This document shows, piece after piece, positions 3,984 to 27,330 of a stretch of DNA of 42,045 nt. Under the pieces are notes generated by a model. The model was not told the DNA's origin, made no database searches, and saw nothing but the letters and a program-made list of their open reading frames with translations. The DNA lies in assembly GCA_003220435.1 (NCBI GenBank), contig QHSL01000095.1, forward strand, positions 1 through 42,045. The letters run 5' to 3'. Position numbers and translations under genes: made by a program. Numbering within the stretch: position 1 is the stretch's first letter; each line of letters opens with the position of its first letter. This DNA is from Candidatus Rokuibacteriota bacterium (GTDB lineage Bacteria > Methylomirabilota > Methylomirabilia > Rokubacteriales > CSP1-6).

Positions 3984-4032
3984 GCGGATAGCGGGCGCCC
4001 CGTTGCCCCGGAACTCACGAGAGGAGTTCGCC

Positions 4033-6290: not shown

Positions 6291-6495
6291 CCCGAAGGGC
6301 GCTGGTCGGCGACCTCGCGCACGCCGAGCCGTCCGCGAGGGTCGTACCACTTGTAGAGCCAGTTCAACACGTCGAGGTTGGCGGTCGAGGCTCGACCGGC
6401 TTGCCGATGGTGTGCGTTTGCTGTATCAGGAGGCGGGCGGGCTACGAAGCCATGCCGCGTTGGGCGGAGCAGCAGGAGCCAGGAGGAACGCACTC

Positions 6496-7359: not shown

Positions 7360-7398
7360 CGAGGGCGGGAGGTTCGCGAAGGCGAGTGGAGGACAGAC

Positions 7399-7809: not shown

Positions 7810-7814
7810 AGACA

Positions 7815-8873: not shown

Positions 8874-8883
8874 GCGTCGAGGC

Positions 8884-9642
8884 CTATCCTCCCCGCCGCC
8901 AGCCCAGCCGGGCCAGCTGGTAGTCCTGGGCCGTGTCGATCTCGAAGTAGTCGCCGTGGGTCTCCACGGCTTGCATCTCGACCCCGGCCTCGAGCATGTG
9001 CTGGAGGAGGTCGATCAGGTAGGCCTGAAGGAAGGTCGCGGCGCGCCCGAAGGGCCGGCCGTGGTGGGCGCCGCGGGCGCCGTGGTAATGATCGATGAGG
9101 CAACGGGCGCCCGCCGGGTTGAACTTCGCAACCCCCGTGAACTCCGCTGGCGCCTCATCCGGCGGGATCGCCCGGCTCACCTGGAGGACCCGGCCGCTCG
9201 CGAGGCGGATCTTCTCGCCGTCAGCCTCGGGGTGCTCGGTCCGCAGCCGGTAACGCTCCCGCCAGTCGGTGTCCACGAGGAGCGCCGTGTCGGCCGGCGC
9301 GGCGACGAGCCGTCGGACCGCGTCCCCCGTGAAGAGCGTGTCGGCGTAGGTCGAGACGAAGCCCCGGCCCATCTCGGACTCGGCGCAGAAGAGCGAGGCG
9401 AGGATGTTGTTCTCCGCCCACCCGGCGTTGTGGCAGAAGCGGAGGCCCGGGTAGTCGGCCCGCACCCGGTCGATCAGGTACCCGCCGATGAAGACCACAT
9501 CGCGGACCCCGGCGCCGCGCAGCGCACCGAGCGTCCAGTCCAGGATCCGCCGGCCCCCGATCTCGGCGTAGCATTTGGGCACGTTGTCGGTGAGCGGTCC
9601 GAGGCGCCGACCGCGGCCTGCCCCGATGATGATGCCCGTCAT
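8884..9642 (-). CDS. Nucleotidyltransferase (NTP_transferase family, LicC-like)
   Basis: This 252-residue protein joins an NTP to a phosphorylated substrate with release of pyrophosphate. The N-terminus IIIGAGRGRRLGPLTDNVPK is the nucleotide-binding signature with its Lys. The segment AENNILASLF resembles the N-x-x-SL stretch of LicC-type phosphocholine or polyol-phosphate cytidylyltransferases. TYADTLF supplies the first metal Asp. Its ATG (9642) overlaps the stop of the upstream phosphodiesterase (ATGA), so expression is coupled. Placement beside a phosphodiesterase and a glycerol-phosphate-type importer suggests a phospho-alcohol substrate, but sugar-1-phosphate is an alternative. Confidence 0.85.
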   Translation of the reverse strand: MTGIIIGAGRGRRLGPLTDNVPKCYAEIGGRRILDWTLGALRGAGVRDVVFIGGYLIDRVRADYPGLRFCHNAGWAENNILASLFCAESEMGRGFVSTYADTLFTGDAVRRLVAAPADTALLVDTDWRERYRLRTEHPEADGEKIRLASGRVLQVSRAIPPDEAPAEFTGVAKFNPAGARCLIDHYHGARGAHHGRPFGRAATFLQAYLIDLLQHMLEAGVEMQAVETHGDYFEIDTAQDYQLARLGWRRGG

Positions 9643-10967
9643 CCGTGATGGAGCCGCTCGTCGAGCGCCTCGAGCAACGGCGGGGCCTCCGCGGCCGGCA
9701 GCTCGACCCGAAGGAGTCGCGCCGCCGTCGGTGCGAGGCTGAGCATCGAAGCCGTCTCCAGTTTCACCCCGCCCGCCACGCCCGGGCCCGCCATGACGAG
9801 TCCCGCCGCCATCCGCTCGATGCCCGGGAGGTGCCCGTGAGCCGCGCGGTAGGCGGGGGCTCGGGCGACGGCCGCCGCCGTGGCGTGACCGGTGAAGTAT
9901 ACGTCGGCGGCTGCCGCCAGCATCAGGTCGCCCTGGGTCGAGCCGGGCCCGGGCGCGGGCAGGCCGAGATCCGGGAAGCGCTCGGGCCCGAACACCTCGA
10001 CGCCGGAGAGCGCCGAGAGGCGCTCGCTCAGGCGCTCCCGGGTGGTCCGGGGAGCGCCGTCCAAGACGTAGACATGCGCCGCGCCGCCGTTCCCGGTCGC
10101 CCAGGCGAGGCGGCGCGTCACGGTCCCACCCGCGTCCACCTCGACGAGTCGTTCCTCGCACAGGATCTGGTTGAGGTGGTAGATCCGGTGGACATCCACG
10201 AAGCCGTGGTCGCCGAAGACCAGGAGCGTAGTGGACTCGGCCCGGCCGAGCGCCTCCAGGGTCTCGAGGAGCCGCCCGACGAGCCGGTCCATCTCGGTAA
10301 GGGCCCAGCGGGCTTCGGGGCTCGTCGTCCCGTAATCGTGCTGGAACGAGTCCAGCGTGAGGAAGTGGAGCAAGAGGAGCCGCGGGGGTCGGACGCGCAG
10401 GATGTGGCGCGCCGATTCGAGCGTGAGCCAGTCCTGCATGGGGCCCAGCGCGTGCTCGGCGCTCCAGGGACCATAGCGGGCGATCGGCAGCCCGCGGTCG
10501 GCCAGCTCGGACCAGAGTGGTCGCGACGCGTGGCGCTCGAACAGCTCCTGGTCGTAGAACTCCGGGATGTTGTCCGCCACGGCGGTGACGCCCCGCGTCT
10601 TCGGCCAGCAGACACCCGCCGTGCGCTCGCCGCGCGCGTGGAGTCGATCCCACAGAGTGTCGACAGCGATCGGTACCTCGGTGCGGTCACCGAAGTGCTC
10701 GACGGGCGCGCCGGCCGTTCGGTCGAAGACCATGTTCCCGAGGACGCCGTGCCGGGCGGGCGCAACGCCGGTGACGATGCTCGCGTGGCAGGGCCACGTG
10801 ACCGACGGGAAGATCGGGACGAGCCGCCGCGCGCGGGCACCGCGCGCAACGAGGCTCTGGAGCGCCGGCACCTCGAGCGTCGGGTCGTCCAGGAACGTCG
10901 CCGCCAGCCCGTCGATGCTGAGCATGACGACCAGGTCGGGCGCTACCACAGGCAGGGCTTGTAGCAC
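9639..10967 (-). CDS. Alkaline phosphatase superfamily phosphodiesterase / nucleotide pyrophosphatase (NPP-like)
   Basis: This protein of up to 442 residues hydrolyses phosphodiesters or pyrophosphates with two metals. The active-site set of the NPP branch is visible in order: VVMLSIDG (metal Asp), FPSVTWPCH (nucleophile Thr), LTLDSFQHDYG (Asp and His), FGDHGF (Asp-His) and AAHGHLPG (His of the HGxxP motif). All look intact. No signal peptide is evident, so it is probably cytoplasmic. The longest start is GTG 10967; ATG 10924 (just before SIDG) is possible but would clip the first strand. It lies 73 bases downstream of the ATPase gene and overlaps the nucleotidyltransferase start by four bases. 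The substrate might be what the adjacent transporter imports, such as a glycerophosphodiester; that is inference. Confidence 0.87.
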   Translation of the reverse strand: MLQALPVVAPDLVVMLSIDGLAATFLDDPTLEVPALQSLVARGARARRLVPIFPSVTWPCHASIVTGVAPARHGVLGNMVFDRTAGAPVEHFGDRTEVPIAVDTLWDRLHARGERTAGVCWPKTRGVTAVADNIPEFYDQELFERHASRPLWSELADRGLPIARYGPWSAEHALGPMQDWLTLESARHILRVRPPRLLLLHFLTLDSFQHDYGTTSPEARWALTEMDRLVGRLLETLEALGRAESTTLLVFGDHGFVDVHRIYHLNQILCEERLVEVDAGGTVTRRLAWATGNGGAAHVYVLDGAPRTTRERLSERLSALSGVEVFGPERFPDLGLPAPGPGSTQGDLMLAAAADVYFTGHATAAAVARAPAYRAAHGHLPGIERMAAGLVMAGPGVAGGVKLETASMLSLAPTAARLLRVELPAAEAPPLLEALDERLHHG

Positions 10968-11040
10968 ACGCCCCGGCGTCCCGCAAGCCAGCGGCGGCCC
11001 GCGGGTTCGAGAAACGTGGTCGACAGGCGGCGGACTCCCG

Positions 11041-12126
<1,086 letters not shown>

Positions 12127-12131
12127 CGCGC

Positions 12132-12956
12132 CTAGCCCTTGATGCCCACCATCCCGATTCCCTCCAGCAGCCGCCGCCGCACCAACGCAAACAGGAATAT
12201 CGTGGGCAGGACCGACACCACGGCCATGGCGAAGATGAAATTGAGGGGCTTGAAGTATTCGCTCTGGAACGAAATCAAGCCCACCGGGATGGTCCACAGG
12301 TCGCGGTTCCTGGCAACGATCAGCGGCCAGATCAGGCTGTTCCAGTTGCTCATGAAGGTCAGAATCCCGAGGGCGCCGAGGGCTGGCTTGCACATGGGGA
12401 ATATGATCCGCCCGAAGATCTGGAACTCATTGAGCCCATCAATCCTTGCCGCCTCCGCGTAATCGTTCGGAATGGTCATGATGAACTGGCGCATCCAGAA
12501 CACGCCGAAGGGCGCGATCATCACGGGAATGATCAATCCCCAGTACGAGTTCATCATTTCGAGCTTGCGAACGATGATGAGCATGGGGATGAACGTCACT
12601 TCCAACGGGATCATGAGCGTCATCAGAACCACCATGAAGAAGGCATCGCGACCGAAATATGAGAACTTCGACAGGCTGTAGCCGGCCATCGTGCAGAAGA
12701 TCAGTGATGAGAGCGTCACCAGTCCACCAACGAAGATGCTGTTGGCGATGTAGCCGCCGAATTTGTATCGCGCGAGTGGTTCCGTGTAGTTGTTCGGGCG
12801 AAGGCTATCAAGATTCTCCGGCAGCCATTGCAACGGCACCTTGGTGATCTCTTCGATCGGCTTCAATGATGACAGCACGGCGTAAAGCATCGGCAATACG
12901 AACGCCGCGGCCAAGAGCGCGGCCGCGACGAAGAAGACGATTCGACCGAGGGGCAT
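12132..12956 (-). CDS. ABC transporter permease, UgpE/MalG type
   Basis: This 274-residue inner-membrane permease has about six hydrophobic helices, starting with a long N-terminal segment at residues 5-27. The EAA loop that contacts the ATPase reads EAARIDGLNEFQIFGRIIFP near residue 190, with the conserved G and the following IIFPMCKPAL. N-terminal PLQWLPENL with NYTEPL is typical of UgpE/MalG-like CUT1 permeases. It starts 12 bases after the other permease's stop and ends five bases before the ATPase start, so it sits mid-operon. It imports a sugar or polyol-phosphate-like solute with the neighbouring subunits. Confidence 0.95.
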   Translation of the reverse strand: MPLGRIVFFVAAALLAAAFVLPMLYAVLSSLKPIEEITKVPLQWLPENLDSLRPNNYTEPLARYKFGGYIANSIFVGGLVTLSSLIFCTMAGYSLSKFSYFGRDAFFMVVLMTLMIPLEVTFIPMLIIVRKLEMMNSYWGLIIPVMIAPFGVFWMRQFIMTIPNDYAEAARIDGLNEFQIFGRIIFPMCKPALGALGILTFMSNWNSLIWPLIVARNRDLWTIPVGLISFQSEYFKPLNFIFAMAVVSVLPTIFLFALVRRRLLEGIGMVGIKG

Positions 12957-12968
12957 CGACGAGCTCTT

Positions 12969-13886
12969 CTAGACCTTCCAGCGTAAGGCCCGTTGCTGCA
13001 GCAGGGTCAACGTGAAGATGATCGCCAGCAGGATGACCGACATCGCGCACGCAATGCCCATGCGCAGATTAACCACGCCCTCCTTGAAGATCAGCAGGCC
13101 AATGACCTGCGTGGCGGTGCCTGGGCCCCCGTCGGTCATGACCAGGAACGGGTCGAAACCTTGTATGGTGTTGACGGTACCGACGACCAGGAGGAAAAAT
13201 AACGTTGGCTTGAGCATCGGTAAGGTGACATAGATGAAACGTTGTCGCCCGGTCAGCCCGTCGACGACCGACGCCTCCCAGATGCTCTTCGGGATCGTTT
13301 GCAGGCCGGCGAGCAGAATGATCGAGTAATAGCCGACGCCCGACCAGACCGTCGTGATGAGAATCGCGACCAGCGCCCAATCCTCATGAGTCAGCCAGTC
13401 GATCGGCGGAATCCCCAGCACGGCAGTGAGACTGTCGATGAGTCCGTGCGGCTGAAAGAAGATCTTCCAAACGACCGACGTGACCGCGAGGGGAAAGACA
13501 TAGGGCAGGAAATAGATCGTCTGAAAGACGCCGGCGCCGAGCACGCGGGTCTGCACGATATGGGCCATCAAGAAGGCAATGACAAATATCAAGGACAGGC
13601 GCAGGAATATGTACTTCGCCGTGATGTACAGCGACTCCCAGAAGGCGGGAATGTTCAGGACCGTGACGTAGTTGGCTAGCCCATTGAACTCAGGCGGCGA
13701 AAGAATGTTGTAGCTCGTAAAGCTGAAGACCACCGCAACGGCGATCGGGCCGATCAGAAAAATGAGCGTGAACAGAAGCGCCGGCAACAGGAACAGGAAA
13801 CCCGTCAGCTGCTGGCGAAAGATGTAAAAGGGTGAGCCGGCTGAAATGAGCCGCGTCGCGGAGAGTGCGCCGCGCCCGATGCTCAT
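12969..13886 (-). CDS. ABC transporter permease, UgpA/MalF type
   Basis: This 305-residue permease has about six transmembrane helices (first near residues 28-50, GFLFLLPALLFTLIFLIGP). Its EAA loop is EASVVDGLTGRQRFIYVTLP followed by MLKPTL. The segment FLVMTDGGPGTAT near residue 255 is the very conserved GGP motif of CUT1 first permeases. The ATG at 13886 overlaps the stop of the binding-protein gene (ATGA), which fixes the start; longer frames upstream belong to the binding-protein region. It forms the heterodimeric channel with the permease at 12132-12956. Confidence 0.95.
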   Translation of the reverse strand: MSIGRGALSATRLISAGSPFYIFRQQLTGFLFLLPALLFTLIFLIGPIAVAVVFSFTSYNILSPPEFNGLANYVTVLNIPAFWESLYITAKYIFLRLSLIFVIAFLMAHIVQTRVLGAGVFQTIYFLPYVFPLAVTSVVWKIFFQPHGLIDSLTAVLGIPPIDWLTHEDWALVAILITTVWSGVGYYSIILLAGLQTIPKSIWEASVVDGLTGRQRFIYVTLPMLKPTLFFLLVVGTVNTIQGFDPFLVMTDGGPGTATQVIGLLIFKEGVVNLRMGIACAMSVILLAIIFTLTLLQQRALRWKV

Positions 13887-15184
13887 TTCTTCTTGCCTTC
13901 CTGCAGAATCGCGTCGATGTTCGTTTTCGCGCGGTCCAGCGTCTTCTGAATGTCCCGGTCGAGGAGGAGGATTTCCTCCATGGCTTTCTTCAGGACGTCC
14001 GCCACCCGGCTGTATCGCGGGAAATTCGCCAGGGGACGCGCGAACTGCAGCTGCTGCTCCCAGAACGCCGCCTGGGGGACGGTCCGCGCACCCTCCGTCT
14101 GCGACCAGCCGGCGCGGGGAACAATATCGCCGGTCTCGATCAGGTTGCGCGACGGCTGCGAGGTGAGGAAGTTGGCGAACCGCCACGCGAGGTCCTTCTT
14201 GGTGGAGCGCGCGTAGACCACCCATGCCCAACTGGTCGTGCTGGCCACGGCCGGCTTGCCGGAAAACGTCGGATAGGGAATCGCGAGAAGATCGTCCTTG
14301 CCGACGGTCGCTGCATATTCCTTCCGCCACCGCGGAATGCCCCAGTTGCCGCCTACGATCATCGAGAATTTGCCGGTCGGAAACCCCTGGTTGAAGTAGT
14401 CGAGCCCGGCGGCGATGTTCTTGTCCGACACGCCAAGCTCGAAGCGCTTTTTGACGAGCTTCATCGCTCGGACGCCCGCCTCGTTATTGATGAGGGCCTC
14501 GGTCCGATCGTTGTTCAGGATCGAGCTGCCAAGGTCGTGAATGACGGGTTCGAGCTCGAGCAGAAACCAGGCCGCGTCATGGGTAAACGGAAATGAGAGT
14601 GCCTGACGCGTGATGCGGCCGCTCGCGTCCTTCTGCACGAGCTTCTGCGCGACATGAAACACCTCGTCCCAGGTCTTCGGGGCGTCCTTCGCGGGATCGA
14701 GTCCGGCCTCGCGGAAGTGTTTCGCGTTGATGATGTACGCATAGATGTTGAACTGCCACGGCACCGCGTAGAACGAGTCTCCGACCCGATAGGGGTCAAG
14801 GACTCCGGGCGAATAGGCGGCCTTCAGGTCGTTCACCGTCGAGAAACCCATGCTCCGCAGCGCTTGCGCGTCAATCGGAGACAGGATGCGGTTGTCATGA
14901 AACTCGGAAAAGTTGCGGTAGGACATTCCAAGGATGTCGGGCGCGTCACCGGCCGCCAGCGTCGCCGACAGCATCGTAAAGTACTGCGTGGGGGGCACGC
15001 TGTGGATCTCGATCTTGACGCCTGGATTGGCCGCCTCAAACTCGGTCGCATATTTTTGGAATAGCTTTCCTTGCGCCCCTTCGAGAGGCATGTGGTGCCA
15101 CCACGTCAGCGTTTGGGCCTGGGCCGTCGCCACTGCAAGGCCGATTGCGCCGACTGCTACCAGCGCCAGCGTGAGCGTTTTCAT
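13883..15184 (-). CDS. Extracellular solute-binding protein, family 1 (UgpB-like)
   Basis: This 433-residue periplasmic receptor delivers solute to the permease pair. A clear Sec signal peptide occupies residues 1-24, ending in TAQAQ. The mature start TLTWWHHMPLEGAQGKLFQK with EFEAANPGVKIE is typical of family 1 binding proteins related to UgpB, and SWAWVVYARSTKKDLAWRF is the conserved late segment. GGGAGG lies about 10 bases upstream of ATG 15184. It is the first gene of the minus-strand run, so the promoter should lie in 15185-15498. The similarity suggests glycerol-3-phosphate, glycerophosphodiester or sugar as ligand, but ligand residues were not checked. Confidence 0.94.
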   Translation of the reverse strand: MKTLTLALVAVGAIGLAVATAQAQTLTWWHHMPLEGAQGKLFQKYATEFEAANPGVKIEIHSVPPTQYFTMLSATLAAGDAPDILGMSYRNFSEFHDNRILSPIDAQALRSMGFSTVNDLKAAYSPGVLDPYRVGDSFYAVPWQFNIYAYIINAKHFREAGLDPAKDAPKTWDEVFHVAQKLVQKDASGRITRQALSFPFTHDAAWFLLELEPVIHDLGSSILNNDRTEALINNEAGVRAMKLVKKRFELGVSDKNIAAGLDYFNQGFPTGKFSMIVGGNWGIPRWRKEYAATVGKDDLLAIPYPTFSGKPAVASTTSWAWVVYARSTKKDLAWRFANFLTSQPSRNLIETGDIVPRAGWSQTEGARTVPQAAFWEQQLQFARPLANFPRYSRVADVLKKAMEEILLLDRDIQKTLDRAKTNIDAILQEGKKK

Positions 15185-15498
15185 CACCCGAGGCCTCCCT
15201 TTTGAACGTGTCTGCGATCGCTCGGCGGGAGCCAAGTATCGGCCCTTCTCGGTCGTTTTTCCCGTTCCCCAAGGGGCTGGCGGACGAAAGTAGCCATGAC
15301 CCACTCGGCCTCGATGGTGCGCGGCCGGCGCGGGCAGTGTCAAGGACGGCACCGGGCGGCACCCGTCGCGCCCCGGACTTAGGCATCACCGAGCAGATGG
15401 CGGAGGCGGCGATCGCATTTGCCTCCAACCATTCTGCTTCAGCGGACCGCGCGACGAGGATCGCCTTCAAAGCTTCCCAATGAGGGTGGATTTCTGCG
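15185..15498. other. Intergenic region upstream of the transporter operon
   Basis: This 314-base divergent region lies between the binding-protein start and the next plus-strand gene. The leader of the transporter operon must be here, including the GGGAGG ribosome site at about 15194-15199. On the minus strand a GATACT-like -10 lies near 15235, but no matching -35 is convincing. A minus-strand open frame across 15300-15640 has mildly coding-like residues (RIAEIHPHWEALKAIL) with no ribosome site or family resemblance, so I do not call it. Confidence 0.4.
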
Positions 15499-16152
15499 AT
15501 GCGCTGGGGACTTCTTCGGGGAGAATCAGATGAGGCTCTGCATGAGCGGCTCGGACGACTGCGGGAGCAAACCGGACGCTGGCTACCGAGGACCGACGAG
15601 AGCCGGCCCAGGGGAGGGGGTGTCGTCTTCCATCCTCTCACCCACGCGCTAGTCGGATGGGTTGTCGCCTGTTTCGGGCGGGCCGACCGGCGGACTCGTT
15701 TGTGGTGCCTGGCCGCGAGTCTCGCCCCTGACTTGGACGGCCTTTCCCTTCTCGTTGGCCTCGATGTCTACGCTCACTATCATCATCTGGTCCTCCACAA
15801 CCTGCTTTTCGGGGTCTTCGTCACCCTGGTCAGTGCCTATTGGATCGGTCTCCGGCCGTTCTACCTGGGGCTGGTCCTCCTGGCCTTCCTCTCGCACTTG
15901 GTGGGTGACTATTTCGGTTCCGGGCCTGGGTGGGAGCTGTGGCCATTCCTGCCGTTCTCGGACAGGACTTACGTTTGTGAATGTGCGTGGGACCTTGTCT
16001 CGTGGCAAAACACCCTCATCACCGTTGTCGCCATTGCCGTGACACTCTGGGCGGCGGTGCGGCAAGGTCACACCCCCCTCGAGTTCCTCCACGCCAGGCT
16101 GGAGCAGACAGTCGTGAAGACGCTCCAGCGACGTTGGCGCAGGAATGCTTGA
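15499..16152 (+). CDS. Membrane protein resembling YdjM-type metal-dependent hydrolases (DUF457-like)
   Basis: This protein of up to 217 residues has a core that starts FHPLTHALVGWVVACF and continues ASLAPDLDGLSLL, the two hallmarks (PxTHxLxG and xPDxD) of YdjM/DUF457 membrane-bound hydrolase-like proteins. It also has LLAFLSHLVGDYF, which supplies further His/Asp metal-ligand candidates. Three or four hydrophobic helices follow (residues about 45-60, 85-125, 165-182). The first 40 residues from ATG 15499 do not look like the family. A strong purine tract (AGGGGAGGGGG, 15610-15620) sits directly before the family-like part, yet no ATG/GTG/TTG is in frame after it, so the start is uncertain and a small frameshift is possible. 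Function unknown. Confidence 0.65.
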   Translation: MRWGLLRGESDEALHERLGRLREQTGRWLPRTDESRPRGGGVVFHPLTHALVGWVVACFGRADRRTRLWCLAASLAPDLDGLSLLVGLDVYAHYHHLVLHNLLFGVFVTLVSAYWIGLRPFYLGLVLLAFLSHLVGDYFGSGPGWELWPFLPFSDRTYVCECAWDLVSWQNTLITVVAIAVTLWAAVRQGHTPLEFLHARLEQTVVKTLQRRWRRNA

Positions 16153-16236
16153 AAAGGGGGCCGCTGCGATAACCTCGGCGTGTTGCTGTGTCCTCCTCTC
16201 TTCTTCGCGCAGCGGCGACAATGGTTCTCGTTCGTG

Positions 16237-16479
16237 ATGAATGGCATCCTCTACGCGGTTTGTGTCTTCTCCATCGTCGTCGGTGTCCTCACACTGAGCG
16301 TTGGTGCCGAGGGATGGGCCCTGGGAGTCTTCGCGGTGTTCCCCTGGCTCTTGTGCTTCGCTCATGTTGCAGACGCTCGCCGGCAAGAAAAGGCGCCGGC
16401 TCCACCGCCGGTGTCGCTCAGGAGCCGCGTTCTCGAGAGCATGCTGATCGTCGCCGTGCGGCGAATTCGCAGGGATTGA
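16237..16479 (+). CDS. Small membrane protein, unknown function
   Basis: I do not recognise this gene. From ATG 16237 it encodes 80 residues with two adjacent hydrophobic helices (roughly residues 4-22 and 28-44, ending FPWLLCFAHVADARRQ), then a Pro-rich link and an Arg-rich C-terminus (VRRIRRD), so the tail is probably cytoplasmic. A longer frame from GTG 16180 is open but adds residues of no clear character. It follows the YdjM-like gene by 84 bases on the same strand. The helix pattern and the basic end make it plausible as a real gene, but no ribosome site is obvious. Confidence 0.45.
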   Translation: MNGILYAVCVFSIVVGVLTLSVGAEGWALGVFAVFPWLLCFAHVADARRQEKAPAPPPVSLRSRVLESMLIVAVRRIRRD

Positions 16480-16732
16480 CCGCCGGGCCATTCTTAACAG
16501 AGCTCCCGAGGCCGCCCTGCTGCGGCAGGCTTCAGTACACGTATAACCGCTGGGCCGACGGGCGATACCTCCTTAAGTTTTCTGATCCTTGGGCCAATTT
16601 TCCGACCGTGCTGGAACGTGGGCCCTGATCGTGAGGGACCTAATCGCGCGCACATCCGGGCAGCCGCGGGTGAGCGGCGTGTAGCAGTACTGCACCGCCG
16701 AGGTGTCGAAGGACCTGTAGGGAGGCCCGGCG

Positions 16733-17473
16733 TCACGGACCCGGTGGTTGCTCCAGCATCCCCCCGCACCCGGCCCGTCGCGCCCAGTACTCCCAGGCGC
16801 GCTGGGTCTCCGGCGAGTACGGCTTGTACCCCGCGTTGCGGGCGTCGATCTCGCCGCGCGACAGTGGCTTCACCTCGCCGAGGGCGAGGGCGGCGAGCAG
16901 GGCGCGGGCGTTGCGCGGCGTGTAGACCGACATTCTGACGACCTCGATGAGCGAGCGGGCGGCGGCGGCGAAGCCGTGCCCGCGCATCAGCGCCACGTTG
17001 TGGCGGCCGAGGCAGCGCGCCAGGCCCCGGCCCTGGGCCATGTTGGTCACCAGGAGATTCGTGTCGCCGAAGCGATCGGCGATGTCCCACACTGGCACGT
17101 CGGCACCCGTGAAGCTGCCGGAATGGATGACCGGTCGCAGCGGCGTCTTGGTGATCGTGAATGGCAGCACCGCCTCGGCGTGGGCGTGGACGACGGCCAT
17201 GACGTCCGGCCGCGCCTCGTAGATCGCTCCGTGGATGAAGCGCTCCAGATAGAGCGCCCGCGTCTCCGCCTGGGTGGGCGTCCCGTCGAGGGCGAACTCG
17301 AGGATGTCGCCGCGCTCTACCAGCTCGGGCGCGAGCGAGCGCGCCAACAGGTAGCGTCCTGGATCGTCGGGATGGCGGACGCTCACGTGACCGTACGCGT
17401 CGACGACGTCCTCGTTGGCGAGGATGCGGTTGGCGATCACGAGATCGCGCACCATCCGGTCGAGGTCGCTCAT
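16733..17473 (-). CDS. Class II aldolase/adducin family protein
   Basis: This 246-residue zinc-dependent aldolase-type protein resembles fuculose-phosphate aldolase or ribulose-phosphate epimerase-like enzymes. It starts MSDLDRMVRDLVIANRILA, with DAYGHVSVRHPDDPGRYLLA the family's GHVSxR segment. The zinc ligands are HAHA (VVHAHAEAV, near residue 95) and a later His in LMRGHGF (near 165). The upstream Glu/Asp candidate lies in QAETRALYLERFIH. Length is normal. It lies 31 bases downstream of the flavoprotein stop on the same strand, so the two are probably co-transcribed. Substrate is uncertain; relatives in soil bacteria often act in aromatic or hydroxy-acid catabolism. Confidence 0.9.
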   Translation of the reverse strand: MSDLDRMVRDLVIANRILANEDVVDAYGHVSVRHPDDPGRYLLARSLAPELVERGDILEFALDGTPTQAETRALYLERFIHGAIYEARPDVMAVVHAHAEAVLPFTITKTPLRPVIHSGSFTGADVPVWDIADRFGDTNLLVTNMAQGRGLARCLGRHNVALMRGHGFAAAARSLIEVVRMSVYTPRNARALLAALALGEVKPLSRGEIDARNAGYKPYSPETQRAWEYWARRAGCGGMLEQPPGP

Positions 17474-17504
17474 AGCCCGTCCGCCGGCATGTGACCCTTC
17501 AAAA

Positions 17505-19202
17505 TCATTGGCGGTCGTAGACCTCCGCGACCGCCCTTCCCACGTAGGGCACTTCGGGTTCGGGCACGTCGCGTTCGGGCCCGGTCCAGCGCACGTATTG
17601 CCCAGGAAGGGGCGGACGGACGGCGGCGAAGACGGCCGGTCTGAGCCTCGGCAACAGCCGGAGCAGCAGGGGGCGGATCGTCTCGCTGATCAACCGCGGG
17701 ATCTCCCGGCGCAGGTTCTTGTTTCCGTTCATCGCAAGCAGGCTCCGCCGCATGTCCCGGCGGCGCGCGAACATTCGGGTTACCGCCTTCATCACGTCCT
17801 CACGCGCGCAATCGAAGCGCAGATTGATGAGCGCGTCGAGGTCCGGCCCCCGGTCGAACCCCTCCTGGGAGTATGGGGGGCCGATGGCGGCGCTCGCCTC
17901 CGCGGCGAGAACCCACAGTGATTCTGCGTCCTCGTCGCGATCCCGAAACAGCCGCATGAGGAGCCGGGCGCCTTCGGGGGTCGTGAAGAACCCGTTCCAC
18001 CACAAAGGCAGGAAAGCGTTGAACCAGCCAGTTACGTTGAGGTAGCGCCGCATGCACGCCTGAAAGGGGTCGTGCATGATCTCGTACTGCTCGGTGACCT
18101 CGCGCTGGGCGCGCTCCATGATCCAGAGGCCGGCCGCCTCGAGAGCCGCGACGTCGCCCGGTTTCAGGGTCCCGGCGCGCTGGCGCTCGATGATCTCCGA
18201 AATCTGGCCCACCTGAACCGTGGTCATCGAGATCCCATTGCTGTACAGCGGGTCGACCGCTCGGGCCGTGTCGCCCACAAGGAACCAGCCGTCCTCGGAG
18301 TAAATGCGCTCGCTCCGATAGAAGTAGTCGAGGTACATCTGGGTGTCCACGACTTCGCCGGAGCGGACCATTTCCGCTAGCGCCGGGTGGTCCCGATCGA
18401 CCTGAGCGAGGAAGTCCTCCATCGACAGGATCCGCCGGCCAAACAGGTCCGGCCGGTAGGTGAATCCCATCGAGCACAAATTTTCCTTGCCGATCTCGAG
18501 CGGGATCAACCAGATCCAGTAGCCGCGGCCCAGGAAGTGGTGCGTCGTCAGCCATGGATCGAACTTCCACTGGCGCCGGCGGTGCACTTCGATGTGTTCG
18601 AGGAACGGTTGGAAGTTTTGCAGCCGAAACCAGAACGTGCACCGCTGTTTTTCCGGGCGGATGTACTTCGTCACCTTCTTGCCGATCAGCCGCCTCCGGC
18701 CTGTTGCGTCGACGATCCATCGCGCACGGATCTCGACTTTCTCGCCGTTGATGGTCGCCAACACCCGGTGCTTCGCGCCGCCGGCGTTGATCTCGATCTC
18801 GTCGGCGACGCCGTGCAGCATCCGCGCGCCGAGCGCAACGGCCCGCGCGCGGCATGCGGTGTCGAATTCCTGGCGCCGCATCTGCCGGGCCTTGTGGTAC
18901 AGGATCTCCGGAGCGTGCACCGTGTACGCGCGATCCGCCGGATTGGACAGATCAAATTTGTGATAGAAGGTCAGGCCGTGCTTCAGGACCTGCATCTGGT
19001 CGAGGTGGGGGCCGAGCCCCATCTCGCGGAAGAACAGGATGCCCGGTTCGACCAGCGATTCACCGACAAGCGGCCGCTTCTCCTCGGTGGGCAGGGGTCC
19101 AAGCACGGTCACGTCGAGTCCGGGGTTCCGATGCTTCAGGTTCAGCGTGACCATCATGCCGCTGAGGCTGGAGCCCACCACCAGGACTTCGGTTTCAAGC
19201 AT
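17505..19202 (-). CDS. FAD-dependent oxidoreductase, flavin-dependent halogenase-like
   Basis: This 565-residue flavoprotein begins LETEVLVVGSSLSGMM, a Rossmann FAD motif in which the usual GxGxxG reads GSSLSG. It has GESLVEPG near residue 48, GYWIWLIPLE near residue 240 (a match to the WxWxIP motif of flavin-dependent halogenases) and FLVGDTARAVDPLYSNGI near residue 320 (FAD-contacting GD motif). The start is ATG 19202; the in-frame extension to 19274 has no coding character. It is co-directional with the class II aldolase. Family membership in the tryptophan-halogenase/geranylgeranyl-reductase-like group is good, but halogenation itself is unproven because the active-site Lys was not located with certainty. 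An alternative is a reductase or epoxidase. Confidence 0.8.
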   Translation of the reverse strand: MLETEVLVVGSSLSGMMVTLNLKHRNPGLDVTVLGPLPTEEKRPLVGESLVEPGILFFREMGLGPHLDQMQVLKHGLTFYHKFDLSNPADRAYTVHAPEILYHKARQMRRQEFDTACRARAVALGARMLHGVADEIEINAGGAKHRVLATINGEKVEIRARWIVDATGRRRLIGKKVTKYIRPEKQRCTFWFRLQNFQPFLEHIEVHRRRQWKFDPWLTTHHFLGRGYWIWLIPLEIGKENLCSMGFTYRPDLFGRRILSMEDFLAQVDRDHPALAEMVRSGEVVDTQMYLDYFYRSERIYSEDGWFLVGDTARAVDPLYSNGISMTTVQVGQISEIIERQRAGTLKPGDVAALEAAGLWIMERAQREVTEQYEIMHDPFQACMRRYLNVTGWFNAFLPLWWNGFFTTPEGARLLMRLFRDRDEDAESLWVLAAEASAAIGPPYSQEGFDRGPDLDALINLRFDCAREDVMKAVTRMFARRRDMRRSLLAMNGNKNLRREIPRLISETIRPLLLRLLPRLRPAVFAAVRPPLPGQYVRWTGPERDVPEPEVPYVGRAVAEVYDRQ

Positions 19203-19526
19203 CGGGGCTACCTCGCAGTGCACTGTCTCGGAGTTGCGTCCTATTCTTCTATCATCTGACGGAATCTCCATCAAGCCCCTACCTACCTCGAGCCCATCCG
19301 AATCACGATCGAAAACGAGTTTCAGTGAGACGCTGTCGAAAGTTTCCGTATATCCGGGAACGTGCCCGAGGAGTTGACGACCGTGGCCGCGTCGAGGAAC
19401 GGACGCAGCTGCGCAGACAGGTCGCGCAATTCGAGACCCTCACCCGCGACTGACCATCGTCGACGTGCTGTTTGCTCATCCGCGCAAGCTCTCGAGCAAG
19501 GGCGTGCTCGAGTTGAAGAGCGGCCG
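19203..19526. other. Intergenic region with a possible gene remnant
   Basis: This 324-base gap lies between two minus-strand genes. The part next to the flavoprotein holds its leader, with TGATAGAAGA (minus strand, 19246-19255), a -10-like element also seen near other genes of this window. Around 19325-19460 the minus strand reads LRDLSAQLRPFLDAATVV and then SSGTFPDIRKLS before a stop. It looks like the C-terminal end of a lost gene but I cannot name the family. Confidence 0.35.
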
Positions 19527-20861
19527 TCAGGTCGCGGCGGACGGGGCCGCGCCGCTCAGCGTGACCGGAACCGGTTCCACATCCTTCAGGTCCGCCTCGT
19601 ACCTGAGCGAACCGAGGACGAACACGGCCGCCGCGGCCAGGCAGAAGAGCGGGACCAGCGCGAGCGCGGTCTGCAGGCCGTAGGCGTCGGAGAGCGCGCC
19701 CGAGAGGACGGGGCCCGTCGCGAACCCGAACAGGTTTTGGACCACGATCACCATCGCGGCCGCGCGCGCGCGGAGGCCCGGGTGTACGACATCCATGGCG
19801 ACCGCCGCCACCGGTCCCACGCTGGCGGTCATGACGAAGCCGGCCAAAACGATCAGGAGGAACTGAGCGCCGCCCGGCGGCAAGAGCGCGAAGGCGGCGG
19901 TCAGCAGCGCCCAGGTCGTCACCGCGCACGCCGCCGGAACCCGAAGCTTGTTGCGCGGATTGACGTGGCTCAACCTGTCCGCGACGTGGGCCCACACGAT
20001 CGTCCCCACGCTGCCGACGAGGACCACGATGGCTGCCTTCATGCCGGCCTTGGACCCGGGAAGGCCGTAGGCGCGGTTCAGGAAGCTCGGCAGCCACACA
20101 TAGACCGTCGAGACCACGAACAATTGCATCGCCCCGGCGACGATGGCGGCCACGCCGGAGCGCGCCCGGAACAGCCCCGCCGCCATGCCCGAGCCCCCCG
20201 TCTGCGGGCGGGCGGTGCCCGACGCGCCGCCCGAACGGGCGCCCGCAACGTTCTTGTAATCGCGCACCGAGAGGAACAGCAGGGCAAGGACGAGGCCCGG
20301 CACACCGACGACCCCGAAGCCGGCCTGCCAGCCCCAGCGCGCCGATATCACCCCGCCCAGCACGACGCCGAGCACCGAGCCGATCGAGCCCGCCGCCAGG
20401 AACGCGCCGATCACGGTGCCGCGCAGACGCGCTGGGAAGATGGCGGACAGCAGCGCGCCGGCCGCGGGACCATACCCCGCCTCGCCGAGGCCGACGACGC
20501 TGCGCGCGGCAAAGAGCTGAGCGTAGCTGCGTGAGAACCCGCACGCGATCGTCGCCAGGCTCCAGACCGTCGCCATGACGGCGATGCTCTTGACCCGGCT
20601 CCAGCGGTCCACGATCAGAGCGATCGGGAACGTACCGAGCGCGACCGTAACGGACACCACTGAGACCAGCGCGCCGAGCTGCTTGTCCGACAGGGCCCAC
20701 TCGGCCTTCAGATAGGGGAACATCGAGACGATGACCTGACGATCGACGAAGTCGAAGACCATCAGGAGGAAGGCCATCGAAAAGACAAGCCAGGCGTGCG
20801 GCCTGGACACGAGATAGCCGTCCTGAGCCTCGACCGGCGGAACGGAATGCGCGCTCGTCAT
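19527..20861 (-). CDS. MFS transporter
   Basis: This 444-residue major facilitator protein has about 12 hydrophobic helices. The first helix starts HAWLVFSMAFLLMVFDFVDR, followed by the loop motif IVDRWSRVKSIA (motif A variant, D-R-x-x-R) and ARSVVGLGEAGYGPAAGAL, typical of sugar-acid/anion or hydroxylated aromatic-acid transporters (ACS/AAHS-like, as in SpnS-like families). A cytoplasmic loop rich in Gly/Ser/Arg separates the two halves near residue 210. It is probably an importer or exporter of an organic anion. It lies upstream of the flavoprotein and aldolase on the same strand but 324 bases away, so co-transcription is uncertain. It is divergent from the desaturase gene. Confidence 0.92.
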   Translation of the reverse strand: MTSAHSVPPVEAQDGYLVSRPHAWLVFSMAFLLMVFDFVDRQVIVSMFPYLKAEWALSDKQLGALVSVVSVTVALGTFPIALIVDRWSRVKSIAVMATVWSLATIACGFSRSYAQLFAARSVVGLGEAGYGPAAGALLSAIFPARLRGTVIGAFLAAGSIGSVLGVVLGGVISARWGWQAGFGVVGVPGLVLALLFLSVRDYKNVAGARSGGASGTARPQTGGSGMAAGLFRARSGVAAIVAGAMQLFVVSTVYVWLPSFLNRAYGLPGSKAGMKAAIVVLVGSVGTIVWAHVADRLSHVNPRNKLRVPAACAVTTWALLTAAFALLPPGGAQFLLIVLAGFVMTASVGPVAAVAMDVVHPGLRARAAAMVIVVQNLFGFATGPVLSGALSDAYGLQTALALVPLFCLAAAAVFVLGSLRYEADLKDVEPVPVTLSGAAPSAAT

Positions 20862-20961
20862 GGCTCGCGACTATAGTACGGGTCGCGAGGCGCAGGCCGA
20901 GCGACACTCATTCACGCACCGCTCGACAAACCCACCGGCAACGTGATAACTAAGACCACTT
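20862..20961. promoter_or_regulatory. Divergent promoter region between MFS and desaturase genes, possibly leaderless on both sides
   Basis: On the minus strand, TATAGT ends eight bases before the MFS ATG. On the plus strand, GTGATAACT (from 20943) ends about ten bases before the desaturase ATG at 20962. Neither start codon has a good purine-rich ribosome site. A -10 box this close to the ATG would start transcription at or near the start codon, giving leaderless messages. No clear -35 is seen for either, so this is a candidate only. Confidence 0.35.
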
Positions 20962-21933
20962 ATGAGTGCGCCGACCGTCGAGCCCCTGCATCCGCACTCT
21001 TTCCAGGGCCGAATTCCTGACCGCCTACCGATCCAGGTCATGCGGGAGCTGTCCGTCCTGCAGCCTGGTAAAGCCGTGGCGGCTATTGCGATCGAGTGGG
21101 TGGGCATTCTGGCGGCGATCGCGCTGTGTGAGGCGGTATGGCATCCACTCGTGTATGCCTGCGTCGTCGTGTGGCTTGGGGCGCGCCAGCATGCCCTGAC
21201 CGTGCTGGGACACGACGCGGCGCACTTCCGCCTGCTGCCCAACCGACAGTGGAACGATTGGGTTGCCAATCTGACGACGCAGTGGCCCACCTTTGTGACC
21301 GTTGAAGGTTTCCGCCTCTACCACGGCGAGCATCATCGCTTCACCGGCACCGCCGCCGATGGCAACCGCACGATCTGGAAGACGCACACGGCCGATGGGC
21401 ACATGAGCGCGGAATGGACGTATCCCAAGACGTCCCTGGCACTGGGGCTGAAGATCCTGCGCCGCGCCGTCTTTGTCACCGGTTTGTATTGGATCCTGCG
21501 TGGCATGGTCGGAATGGTGGTCCTCCGGCGTTCCTGGTGGCAAGTCATTGCCCGTCTGAGCTTTTATGGCGTGTGTGTCGGGGGGCTGGCCGCCGCCGGT
21601 CTGCTCCAGGGTTTCTGGCTCTACTGGCTTGTGCCGTACTGCACCTGGCATATGGCCTGTCAGTACATCCGGCTGATCTGTGAGCACAGCGCGGTACACG
21701 GCACTGACCCGGCCTATATGCTGACGCGCACCACACTCGCCCGCTGGTGGGAGCGCTGGCTCATCGTGCCGCGCAACATTCACTACCATATCGAGCACCA
21801 CTGGTACCCGAGCGTGCCGTTCTACAAGCTCCCAGCCCTGCACGCCCATCTGATGGCGCAGCCGGAATTCCGCAAGCACGCCGTAGTCACCACCTCGGTA
21901 CTCGGTTCTCTCCGGCAGTGCATCGCCAGATGA
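20962..21933 (+). CDS. Membrane fatty acid desaturase
   Basis: This 323-residue di-iron membrane desaturase or hydroxylase carries all three His clusters: HDAAH near residue 90, YHGEHHR near residue 118 and HYHIEHHWYP near residue 275. Hydrophobic helices lie around residues 38-75, 165-190 and 195-225. The length and His spacing match the FA_desaturase family, whose members insert a double bond or hydroxyl in an acyl chain at the membrane. The ATG at 20962 has no clear ribosome site. It is the first gene of a plus-strand group with the FMO-like, DarA-like and P450-like sequences. Acyl or polyene/carotenoid substrates are both possible. Confidence 0.92.
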   Translation: MSAPTVEPLHPHSFQGRIPDRLPIQVMRELSVLQPGKAVAAIAIEWVGILAAIALCEAVWHPLVYACVVVWLGARQHALTVLGHDAAHFRLLPNRQWNDWVANLTTQWPTFVTVEGFRLYHGEHHRFTGTAADGNRTIWKTHTADGHMSAEWTYPKTSLALGLKILRRAVFVTGLYWILRGMVGMVVLRRSWWQVIARLSFYGVCVGGLAAAGLLQGFWLYWLVPYCTWHMACQYIRLICEHSAVHGTDPAYMLTRTTLARWWERWLIVPRNIHYHIEHHWYPSVPFYKLPALHAHLMAQPEFRKHAVVTTSVLGSLRQCIAR

Positions 21934-21952
21934 GTGATCGAATCGCTCACTC
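21932..21952 (+). terminator. Hairpin at the end of the desaturase gene
   Basis: The sequence GAGTGATCG-AAT-CGCTCACTC forms a nine-base stem with one mismatch and a three-base loop. It overlaps the desaturase stop codon. No T-tract follows, so it could be a terminator-like or mRNA-stabilising structure, not a classical rho-independent terminator. Confidence 0.4.
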
Positions 21953-22055
21953 GGCCCGTGCAGGCGCGGCCGGCGGAGCGTGATCGTCCCGTTGCTCAGG
22001 CTGAGCCGCCGCGGTTTCCGGAAGACTGGATTTCCCTACACTCCAAAGGAACGTC

Positions 22056-23946
22056 GTGCAAGAGACGAGCGTTGACGTATGCATTGTTGGCGCCGGCTGG
22101 TGCGGCATCTACGCGACAAAACACATGGTCGAATACGGGCTGAGCTGCCTCTGCGTGGATGAGCGGTCTCACACCGGTGGCCTCTGGAAGTTCGATGATC
22201 GCAAAGAGACTGTAAGTATCGCCGACTTTACCTGGACCTCCACTCCCAGGGCGTTCACCGAGGCCTCAGATTTCCCCTGGCCTGCCGACGCGGGCTATTA
22301 CGTGCACGCGAATACGCTCTTTGCGTGGCTGCAGGATTACATCGATCATTTTGGCATCCGGGATCGGTTCAGGCTGCAACACCGTGTCATCGAGTGCCGG
22401 AAGGAACAAGACCACGGCCGGGATGCGCGATGGATCACTGAAGTCGAAACATCCGACGGCGTTCGATCCCGGTTCCTCAGCAAATTTCTGGTGATTGCCT
22501 CAGGCCTGAACCACCGTCGCGTAGATTTTCGCGAGTCGGATCGGTTCAAGGGATTCAGCGGCACGTTCTTACACAGCAGCGCAGTAAAACGGGTGGTCGA
22601 CGCGGATGGCACCTCGATGTTCGACGGCAAAACCGTTGTGGCCTACGGGGGCGGCGAGAACGCCACGGATCTGGCCTACAAGATCTCCGGGCACACCGAC
22701 CGCTTCTTTATGTGCGTGCCCAGGGGACAGTGGATGCAGAATCGCTGCTTTCTTTCCCGGCGGATGCTGTGGGCGTTTAGCGGTTGGAACGGCCTGTTCC
22801 TCGAGACCATGAACGGTCGGGGCGGCAGCGGTCAGACGGCCTGGACACCCACCAGCCCTGTCTATCGGTCGTTTGGCAACAAGGCGGATCTGATCTACCA
22901 CGCCCTGGCGGCCGGGCGAATTATTGCCAAACGCGATGTGGCGCAGGCCCAGGACGACATCGTCGAATTCACCGACGGAAGCCGGACCCGTGCCGACATA
23001 ATTTTGATGTGCACCGGCTTTGCGCCGGATTTGACTATCCTCAACGGGCGAAACTTGAAAAACCCCAGGGATTGGTATCATCAGTGCCTGGACGTCGAGG
23101 ATCCCACGCTACGTCCGCCCGGTACAGGGCTCCATCCCGCAGCTGGCCGAGATGCAATGCCACTATATCGGCATGGTGTGGACGAATCAGGTGGCGCTGC
23201 CCGGCCCCGAAGCGCGACGAGAGCGACAACAGACCGACCAAACACACTGGGAGCGTTATTTTCGCTTCACAAGCAATCGCCTCAAAGGGCTCGTCGATGG
23301 CCGGCTCTATATGAACCACCTTGGCGAGGCTCTTGGTTGGCGCTTTTCACTGCCTCAGGTGCTCCTCAAGTACGGGCCGCGGGTTGCATGGAAGGCGTTG
23401 TGGGCACCCGCGACAATCCACTTGAACTACGCCATGCATCCGCAGAAGGCGGCGCTTTTCAAGAAGCACGTCGAGGCTCAGTACATCACTTCGAACGGGC
23501 TTCCAGCGTTGAACCTGCTCTTTCTGCCCTATGATTTGATCTACTATCAGATTTTGCGCCTGGTCTGGTGGTACCGTGAGCACTTCCATCCCTTCTATCG
23601 CGACCCCATTCCCCCGCGTCTGCGTGGCAAACCGTCCCGGTTCGAGCGTTTTTGGGTGGGACGGATCTGGGAGGCAATGGCGTTTGCCACCATCATTGCG
23701 ATTGTCACGGGCTGGAACACCAGATCGTTCCTCCTTGGCTGGCTTGCCGTCGGCGCTCTTGCTTTGACCTACCGACAAACTGCAGTCACGCTTTTTTCCG
23801 GCCTGAAAAAAATCCAGCAACAGCGAGCCGTCCACAAAAGTCTAAAAAACAAAACGGCGTTTCGGAGAGCGATGTTGCCGGTGGCGATGCGAATGCTGGG
23901 GCTCCTTGCGATTGGCTGGGGATCCGTCTTCTGGATCCTTTTTTGA
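22056..23946 (+). pseudogene. FMO-type flavin-containing monooxygenase with long C-terminal extension, frameshifted near 23105
   Basis: Read through one frame change, this encodes about 630 residues. The N-terminal part (start GTG 22056, after AAAGGA) has the FAD motif CIVGAGWCGIYATKH, then FSGTFLHSS (the FxGxxxHS FMO-type fingerprint) and the second nucleotide fold AYGGGENATDLAY. The frame is good to YHQCLDVEDPTL and continues one frame on as YVRPVQGSIPQLAEMQCHY to the stop at 23944-23946. The late part has conserved-looking aromatic stretches and two hydrophobic helices near the end. The shift (net +1 base, or -2) may be a real mutation or an assembly error. The gene would oxygenate a heteroatom or ketone. 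The 3' end is AT-rich (about 47% GC in 23761-23820 by hand count), unlike the next gene. Confidence 0.8.
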
Positions 23947-23956
23947 TCGAGGTGGC

Positions 23957-24871
23957 ATGACCGCACGACCCCGGGGTGAGGCAGGCATGAAGCGCGTTCT
24001 GCTGGTCTGTTACAGCCAGAGCGGCCAGCTTCGTCGCTGCGCCGACACGCTCGTCGCGCCGATGAGAGAGGCCGGCTGCGAGGTCGACGTGGTGGTGCCG
24101 CAGCCGAAGACTCCCTACCCGTGGCCGTGGGGGTTCTCGGGCTTTCTTTCGGTGTTCCCCGAGTGCGTGAAGGGGACCCCGCCCGAGATGGTGCCCGAGT
24201 CGCTGCAGGCGCCCCAAGAGCAGTACGACCTCGTCGTGCTCGCGTACCAGGTCTGGTACCTCGCTCCGGCGCTGCCGATCGTCGGGTGGCTGCAGAGCGG
24301 GGCCGCGAAGGTGCTCAACGACACGCCGGTGGTGGCGCTGTGCGCGTGCCGCAACATGTGGCAGCGCGCGTTCGTCGCGCTGAAGAAGCTGGTGAGCGCG
24401 AAGGGCGGCCGCCTCATCGACCACGTGGTGCGCGAAGACTCGGGGCCGGCATGGGCGACGTTCTGGTCCACGCCGCGCTGGGTGGTGACCGGCGACAAGG
24501 TTGGCGCCACTGGCCTCTTGCCTCCCGCGGGAGTCAACGACGCCGACATTGCGACGCTCGCCCAGCCCGGAGCGCAGCTCGCCGCGGCGCTGACCGCCGG
24601 CGCGCTCGGCGGCTCGGTGCTCAACGGCAGCGAGGCTCCCATCAAGCGGGAGTTCGTCATTCCCGAGCTGGTGGCCCGCTTCTTCTTCGAGCGGTGGGCG
24701 TCGGTCATCGCGGGCAGCGCCGGCCGCAGCCGCTGGTGGCTCTCGCGCGCCTTCTTTTTCTCACTGTGCTCATCAGTGCCGCTGTTGATCCCCGCGGCCG
24801 TGTTCGCGCTCGTCATTCGGCTCTTCGCGAGAGGCTGGTTCCAGGGCAAGGTGGACGAGCTGACGGCATGA
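23957..24871 (+). CDS. Dialkylresorcinol condensing enzyme-like protein (DarA-like, flavodoxin-like N-terminus)
   Basis: This 304-residue protein starts VLLVCYSQSGQLRRCAD, a flavodoxin-like phosphate-binding loop (YSQSGQ). PYPWPWGFSGFLSVFPE, VVLAYQVWYLAPALP and CACRNMWQRA are features I recognise from proteins annotated as dialkylresorcinol condensing enzyme DarA. A C-terminal hydrophobic helix (around residues 270-292) probably anchors it to the membrane. Start options are ATG 23957 (preceded by GAGGTGGC) or ATG 23987; the family alignment favours the latter, the ribosome site the former. No DarB ketosynthase or acyl carrier protein is adjacent. It lies ten bases after the FMO gene, so the two are probably co-transcribed, and its stop overlaps an ATG that opens the P450 relic. 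Confidence 0.75.
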   Translation: MTARPRGEAGMKRVLLVCYSQSGQLRRCADTLVAPMREAGCEVDVVVPQPKTPYPWPWGFSGFLSVFPECVKGTPPEMVPESLQAPQEQYDLVVLAYQVWYLAPALPIVGWLQSGAAKVLNDTPVVALCACRNMWQRAFVALKKLVSAKGGRLIDHVVREDSGPAWATFWSTPRWVVTGDKVGATGLLPPAGVNDADIATLAQPGAQLAAALTAGALGGSVLNGSEAPIKREFVIPELVARFFFERWASVIAGSAGRSRWWLSRAFFFSLCSSVPLLIPAAVFALVIRLFARGWFQGKVDELTA

Positions 24872-25848
24872 CGATGGCTGCATACACGTTGCTCTTCCGA
24901 GACCCGCCCGAACACACCCGGCTGCGCGCACTCCTGAGCGACGGCTTCACTTCAGTTCACGCACGGTCTCGCGGCTGCGGCCGCGCGTCGAGCAAATCGT
25001 CACCGAGCTCCTCGACCGGGTCCAGGGAACGGGGGCCATGGAGGTCCTCGCCGACTTCGCCTACCCGCTTTCCGTGACGGTGATCTCCGAGCTGCTCGGC
25101 GTCCCGCCGGATGATCACGACTTGATCAAGGGGTGGACGAAGGACATCGAGTTCGGCCTGGAGGCCGTCGGGTCCCCGCATCGTGCGTCTGTCGTGGCGA
25201 GCGGCCGGATCGCCCAAAGGGCGCTCGCCGACTATTTCCGTGGGCTGGTCGCCGAGCGGCGCCGCCATCCCCAGACCGATCTCCTGAGTGTGATCGCGGC
25301 CGACGAGCGAGGCGACGGGCTCACCGAGGGAGAGCTCGTAGGCACGTGCGGCATCCTCTATATGGCCGGCCACGAGACGACGTTCAATCTGATCGGCAAC
25401 GGCCTCTTGGCCTTCCTCCGCCAACCCCGCCGAGCTCGAGCGGATCCGCGCCAATCCGGGGCTGGTCCCGAGCGCAGTCGAGGAGCTGGCGCGCTTCGAC
25501 GGGCCCATTCTCCGCACGTCGCGGATCGCGCAGGCGGATGCGGACATCGATGGCCACCAGATCGCCAGGGACGACATGGTCGTCTTGCTCCTCGGGGCGG
25601 CCAACCGCGATCCCGCGCGGTTTCCCGATCCCGACCGTCTCGACGTCGCGCGCCCAGAAAATCGCCACATTGCCTTTGGCTCCGGCATCCACTTCTGCCT
25701 CGGGGCTCCGCTTGCGCGAATCGAAGTGCAGGCGACCCTCGACGTCCTGCTGCCACGCGTGCCCGGCCTGGCGCTCGCGACCAAGAACCCCGAGAGGCGT
25801 GCGTCCCAGTTGGGACGCGCTCTCAAAGCGCTTCCAGTCACCCTGTGA
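24868..25848 (+). pseudogene. Cytochrome P450, N-terminally truncated and twice frameshifted
   Basis: The P450 landmarks are present in order but spread over two reading frames: DPPEHTRLRALL near 24900, then after a frame change near 24950 RTVSRLRPRVEQIVTELL, the I-helix AGHETT near 25370, a second change near 25425, and finally the heme-binding FGSGIHFCLGAPLAR near 25670-25720 with a normal C-terminus. The first 70-80 residues expected before DPPEHTRLR are absent. The beginning overlaps the DarA-like stop (ATGA, 24868). It is best read as a decaying CYP107-like bacterial P450, unless two assembly errors coincide. Sequence quality is similar to neighbours in GC content. Confidence 0.85.
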
Positions 25849-26061
25849 GGAAGAGGGACGAGACGTTTCGACCCCGCGGAATGCGGTGATGCCGCTACTC
25901 CAGTTCTTCGAGCGCGAACCACCGCCCGCGCGCGACCACTGAGACCCCACCCGACCACACGGACTTCGAGGATTCACCTGAAGAGAGTTCTGTCGTGATA
26001 GGATCGGCGTCGCGTAACGAACCCACGGTGGAGGCCGTCGACTAACAGGAGAGCCCACACC

Positions 26062-27276: not shown

Positions 27277-27330
27277 GAACTCCGGCGACGGCTTCGCCTC
27301 GCCCAAACCCAAAGGTCGTCGGTGCAACAG

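Follow-up and report, generated by a model that had tools for sequence, protein, structure and literature searches.

The darABC cluster for dialkylresorcinols (DARs) contains the gene pair darB and darA. In the known systems, DarB, a ketosynthase-type cyclase, turns two fatty-acid-type intermediates into a cyclohexanedione, and DarA then converts the cyclohexanedione ring to the resorcinol. In Table 1 of the Azoarcus study, darA carries the label DAR-aromatase and darB the label DAR-cyclase (PMC3949708). The DAR pathway is described as proceeding through cyclohexanedione intermediates (PMC4414361). In Chitinophaga pinensis, darB and darA for flexirubin are reported to have led to DAR when they were heterologously expressed (PMC3992019). 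The Azoarcus sp. BH72 protein azo0293 is named a "dialkylrecorsinol condensing protein" at NCBI, whereas the authors label it DAR-aromatase. Based on the two enzyme labels and the cyclohexanedione intermediates, DarA is taken here to be a ring-oxidising enzyme and not a condensing enzyme, despite the database name. In the titles and abstract beginnings of the literature matches listed, no DAR cluster with a desaturase, a P450, and a monooxygenase was found.

A locus with a DarA-like protein in a different setting was analysed here. The window is the whole stretch of 42,045 nucleotides, which is contig C140, positions 1-42045. The source genome is a 5.4-Mb draft with 147 contigs and is 95.5% complete.

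Four genes on one strand

The first-pass annotation had described a desaturase, an FMO, a DarA-like protein, and a P450. Open reading frames, Pfam, and relatives place these four genes where they had been reported, all of them on the + strand (Table 1). No tRNA genes were found in the window, and the repeats in the region resemble chance.

Table 1. Features of the darA region and its surroundings in the window
Feature	Positions	Strand	Basis and remarks
Desaturase-superfamily gene (membrane fatty-acid-desaturase superfamily)	20962..21933	+	Open frame, 323 aa; Pfam PF00487
FMO (flavin-containing monooxygenase), N-terminal part	22056..23100 (end approximate)	+	Pfam FMO-like; frame change near end
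FMO continuation, different frame	23152..23946	+	ORF; hydrophobic stretches close to end
Terminator-like hairpin at FMO end, before darA	23918..23940	+	Hairpin search, weak
darA family gene, 294 aa	23987..24871	+	Open; in-frame alternative ATG at 23957; 75% identity to L016, tree, model
Cytochrome P450 remnant	about 24887..25848	+	Lacks about 80 N-terminal residues; frame changes twice
18.7-kb stretch, not present at the equivalent site in congener G005	7370..26041	.	DNA comparison of flanks
CoA-transferase, downstream of P450 remnant	26062-27276		

The desaturase matches Pfam FA_desaturase (E 1.5e-31), and three His boxes (HDAAH, HGEHH, and HIEHH) can be seen by eye in the translation. Its best relative in NCBIfam is an arginine hydroxylase, at 97.6 bits against a model cut-off of 380 bits. 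With a best relative of this kind so far under its cut-off, the family name does not imply a lipid substrate. Only distant protein relatives were found, at 27-37% identity, and 9 of 59 genomes were matched, the source genome included.

The N-terminal part of the FMO matches the FMO-like Pfam family (E 1e-24) and flavin-dependent monooxygenases in the PDB (best E 1.7e-24). A single frame change falls somewhere from about 23095 to 23152, as placed by eye without a full-length relative in the alignment. In the 59 genomes, the source genome included, this part found a match in nine, at 22-26% identity except for the window's own. Relatives of it were also sought in the genomes that hold DarA. Seven of 22 matched at 24-33% (bar one stretch of 37 residues), and these were set aside as generic FMOs. 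The C-terminal part matches no Pfam or NCBIfam model and has no relative on plasmids or among viral contigs. It was found in none of 195 genomes from the phylum of G060, in a search that had no positive control. By sequence, neither this part nor DarA retrieved anything from the PDB better than E 0.04. Six terminator-like hairpins were found in the region, against 3.3 +/- 2.1 expected.

The P450 homology (~24887 to 25845) begins 16 bases past the darA stop. Compared with P450s of related genomes, which are ~400 residues long, the remnant lacks 76 to 98 residues at its N-terminal end, and its frame changes twice, close to 24951 and close to 25425. P450 DNA matches outside the window occur in each of the nine genomes of the genus, mostly at 67-70% identity among the matches listed. 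The remnant is a truncated member of a type that is common in the genus. With one frame change in the FMO, and a truncation and two frame changes in the P450, the earlier statement that two of the four genes are damaged is correct.

DarA family membership and predicted fold

No model in Pfam or NCBIfam matched DarA at E 0.001. Over its full 294 aa, DarA is 75% identical to the protein of L016, a Myxococcaceae MAG locus. Identity to L015 is 48%, and identities to 53 other aligned relatives range from 29 to 48%. A tree of 61 of the 64 DarA loci and the window groups the window with L016 (support 100/100), and then these two with L015 (100/99). L016 and L015 are both Myxococcota. The loci L070, L073, and L076 were excluded from the tree, as they have long fused or unclear frames. 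Judged by its sequence, the DarA-like protein of the window is a genuine member of the DarA family. The identity to L016 and the placement in the tree thus bear out its first label.

The relatives come from 62 genome loci found by a scan of species genomes with two peptide patterns, which captures part of the family. They belong to Myxococcota, Pseudomonadota, Campylobacterota, Bacteroidota, Cyanobacteriota, Planctomycetota, Thermodesulfobacteriota, and Actinomycetota. Three relatives are on Streptomyces plasmids, and a DarA query against viral contigs found none.

Conservation was examined in an alignment of the window and 54 of the 64 loci (L070, L073, L076, L013, L014, L041, L059, L063, L066, and L071 were excluded). 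There are 15 invariant columns in these 55 proteins: Q11, P47-W48, F53, P58, W90, P97, R122-N123-M124-W125, G169, G182, G195, and L260. At 43 columns that are at least 90% conserved in the others, the window departs at three (F46W, F101W, and T117A), L016 at four, and L015 at six, with a family median of 0. The window DarA appears to be a member of a divergent clade and not a decayed member of it. In the pairwise comparison with L016, dN is 0.20 and dS is 0.53. Eleven changes are unique to the window and 17 to L016, with 45 unresolved. The open frame and the lack of faster change disfavour a long decay, and suggest that the gene either arrived recently or still has some role. If it is functionless, it would have to be recent.

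An AlphaFold2 model built with the 55 sequences (pLDDT 93.2, pTM 0.91) has five strands. Its best Foldseek matches are WrbA and flavodoxins. With VIA-align, an archaeal flavodoxin (5wid) gave Z 13.9 over 141 residues at 2.3 A, a flavodiiron protein also gave Z 13.9, and WrbA (4yqe) gave Z 12.9 over 161 residues at 3.0 A. Human receptor chains also appear in the structure-match lists and are presumably flavodoxin fusions. The core of DarA is predicted to have a five-stranded flavodoxin/WrbA-type alpha/beta fold. Outside the core is a helical C-terminal extension with helices from 221 to 293. The fold probably holds for the DarA family generally, because the model was built from aligned DarA relatives.

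Flavodoxins bind FMN after strands 1, 3, and 4. In the DarA model, the invariant stretches around Q11, W90-P97, and R122-W125 come after strands 1, 3, and 4. The model suggests that DarA may use FMN. Catalysis would then go through a flavin bound in the predicted flavodoxin/WrbA-like core. Such a core would fit the label DAR-aromatase and not a condensing enzyme. The first-pass annotation had named a DarA-like family of simple flavodoxins as something that would refute its reading. This applies by half, as the core is predicted to be of flavodoxin type, which is no argument against DarA identity. As a by-product, a confident flavodoxin/WrbA-type fold is predicted for a protein that Pfam and NCBIfam miss.

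Partner genes and neighbours

DarB is encoded in 60 of the 62 DarA genome loci and likewise in the two plasmid loci that were examined, out of three. The two exceptions, L052 and L058, have DarB elsewhere in the genome. L052 is from Capnocytophaga gingivalis. It has darA without detectable darB in 20.8 kb, and a DarB that is 68% identical to the Flavobacterium one is elsewhere in the genome, perhaps on the same contig just past the stretch compared. In seven of the 62 DarA genomes, L052 and L058 included, the Flavobacterium DarB query matched itself once at 833 bits and gave six other matches at 331-550 bits. DarB anywhere in the genome thus appears to be a sharp companion of darA, being found in all seven of these genomes (one as a self-match). 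In the window's own genome, the best match to the same query is a FabH-like gene at only 40 bits, and no DarB was found in the assembly. Queries with two DarBs, FabF, ACP, a KAS III-like protein, and a type III PKS gave no ketosynthase in the window better than E 0.2, so that the group is indeed without a ketosynthase, as had been noted. The best ACP match in the window is at E 0.29, with a single Streptomyces ACP query that also found nothing in the L016 control.

A query with the Myxococcaceae DarB gave one match of 90 bits in the window's genome, a KAS III-like protein on contig C71. In 58 relatives, the other matches to this query reached 46.5 bits. The C71 protein was considered as a DarB and was rejected, because the eleven best DarBs listed share 24-28% identity with it, at roughly equal distances, and it adjoins a type III PKS. 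By comparison, the L016 DarB shares 47-54% identity with its own eleven best. It matches the Flavobacterium DarB query at 27.5 bits. In a tree of 24 DarBs with FabH and C71 proteins, which is spoiled by long branches, its own branch is very long and joins outside the DarB group, with an unsure placement. The protein is part of a separate cluster (L144, G000:C71:38001-57000, at ~2300-13700) with a type III polyketide synthase and a KAS III-like protein identified by Pfam. By eye, two ketosynthases can be recognised there as well, along with crotonase-like proteins, an FMO, and a phosphopantetheinyl transferase. It presumably resembles the dpg-type dihydroxyphenyl pathways.

An intact desaturase-FMO-DarA-P450 order was sought beside other DarAs. 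At E 0.01, none of the 64 loci (62 genomic and two plasmid) has a relative of the desaturase, the FMO, or the P450; the loci compared span 4.5 to 20.9 kb, and cluster genes lying farther out could have escaped notice. In two Streptomyces plasmid loci, ACP and KAS III genes adjoin darA, and a P450 and an FAD monooxygenase are also annotated. They are not detectably related to those of the window; the two P450s, set against each other by themselves, gave E 0.002 over 55 residues. The FMO and a halogenase-like protein of the window were also tried as kin of the Streptomyces FAD monooxygenase, and no significant similarity was found.

The four genes differ in composition and reach. GC is 0.69 in darA, 0.59 and 0.56 in the two FMO parts, and 0.63 in the desaturase. 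In the nine genomes of the genus, with 33 candidates scored per genome, there is no DNA match on the desaturase, FMO, or darA among the matches listed. The desaturase and FMO are probably foreign in origin, as they have no close relatives and, for the FMO, also because of its GC. Together, the four genes do not look like a biosynthetic cluster or a conserved pathway, and appear to be a mosaic. The suggestion that they are the remains of a lipid-derived metabolite cluster holds in part. The setting is damaged and can be called remains, but one former cluster is not supported, given the 64 loci and the differing GC and reach.

Origin of the region and comparison with known systems

darA was found in one of 95 genomes of the phylum, the window's own. 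Its DNA similarity to L016 (78%) covers only 23979-24871, which is darA and eight bases upstream. In congener G005, window positions 4018-7369 are present in three blocks, and the last ends 80 bases from the homologue of 26042-27305, with 90-96% identity. Since these flanks are 80 bases apart in G005, 7370-26041 is either extra in the window or missing in G005. In the genome G006, the CoA-transferase has another upstream neighbour than in the window. The G002 and G008 contigs stop 772 and 480 bases upstream of this gene. Beyond the gene, the resemblance to the window extends for 93 bases in G006 and 69 bases in G008. The site is variable, and the evidence for cleanly joined flanks comes from a single genome, G005.

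Other genes were noted in the window. At 7815-10967 are MetE-like and type I phosphodiesterase genes with a GC of 0.72, and a nucleotidyltransferase-like gene is between them by eye. They adjoin a sugar-type ABC transporter region with a GC of 0.57-0.63, which is a further compositional break within the 18.7-kb stretch. An FAD-dependent protein is encoded at 17505-19274 and is weakly like flavin halogenases/monooxygenases (59.5 of 900 bits with the CmlS model). It is adjoined by a class II aldolase-like gene (16733-17473), for which two congeners show DNA matches of 89% on other contigs. An open frame of 523 residues at 28355-29926 has a methyltransferase as its C-terminal half, and the earlier part looks by eye like a portion of an alpha/beta-hydrolase.

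It is likely that the locus holds a genuine darA that was horizontally gained from a Myxococcota-like donor and is now stranded without darB among acquired, decaying genes. As no DarB was found in the genome, DarA would be without a known substrate. The gene is therefore most likely stranded, and probably functionless or residual. This reading is preferred because it needs the fewest assumptions. The transfer would have run from the donor to this genome, darB would have been lost or never gained, and the protein would at present lack a function or keep a residual one. The neighbours would be unrelated pieces, a desaturase and a broken FMO, both probably acquired, and the truncated P450 of the genus-common type. 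DarB may also possibly be on the missing ~5% of the genome. Points against a stranded gene are the open frame and lack of faster change in darA, and the spacing of 10 bases between the stop of the FMO and the alternative start of darA at 23957, which looks operon-like.

The open frame of darA and this spacing also agree with a real operon that came together recently, in which the desaturase, FMO, and DarA would act on one substrate without DarB. The genes are on one strand, and the consensus departures of DarA are like those of its own clade. DarA would be a flavin-dependent dehydrogenase/aromatase, for which the WrbA-like fold is plausible as that of a quinone/enone redox enzyme, although a shared fold shows no function. 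The frame change in the FMO would be recent or an error. This operon seems rather unlikely, as none of the 64 DarA loci has a desaturase or FMO relative, the FMO frame is broken, GC differs between the genes, and a weak terminator-like hairpin lies between the FMO and darA. It is unlikely, too, that a DarB-free DarA lineage exists in which a DAR aromatase was recruited with the desaturase and FMO to dehydrogenate a ring or enone not made by DarB. A DarB-independent role for the window DarA is not supported by positive evidence.

Two other explanations look outside such an operon. At 23946-23987 and/or 24871-24887, the contig could join sequences that come from different organisms. The genome is a draft in many contigs, and the junctions are abrupt and gene-exact, with shifts in composition. 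Such an assembly artefact is quite improbable, since both outer flanks are ~90% identical to a congener and place the contig in the genus, with the inner junctions outside that comparison. DarA could also cooperate in trans with some other ketosynthase or a type III PKS from this genome, such as those of the C71 cluster, whose KAS III-like protein stands out with the Myxococcaceae DarB query and adjoins a type III PKS. Its distance from the DarBs, its place in the tree, and its low score with the Flavobacterium query count against this. The cluster is also on a different contig from darA, with nothing to link the two. Cooperation in trans is thus very improbable.

The window's darA is a gene of a known kind that occupies an unusual place, with no partner found. 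An orphan darA is not to be taken for a resorcinol cluster, and genes with suggestive names on the same strand need not form a pathway. The window DarA shares its family with the DarA of dialkylresorcinol clusters such as that with azo0293, as judged via relatives in DarB-carrying loci and not from the azo0293 sequence. It differs from them in that no DarB was found nearby or in the genome. The same holds for the Chitinophaga pinensis flexirubin genes, where the darA family is shared and the window's genome is without the darB. With WrbA, an FMN protein, and the flavodoxins, residues 1-206 of DarA share the predicted fold at 10-21% identity in the rows listed, whereas the C-terminal helical extension is DarA's own. 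The closest relatives found are those of the Myxococcota loci L016 and L015. In contrast to the window, darA in these two loci comes after ketosynthase-like genes and has darB directly behind it.
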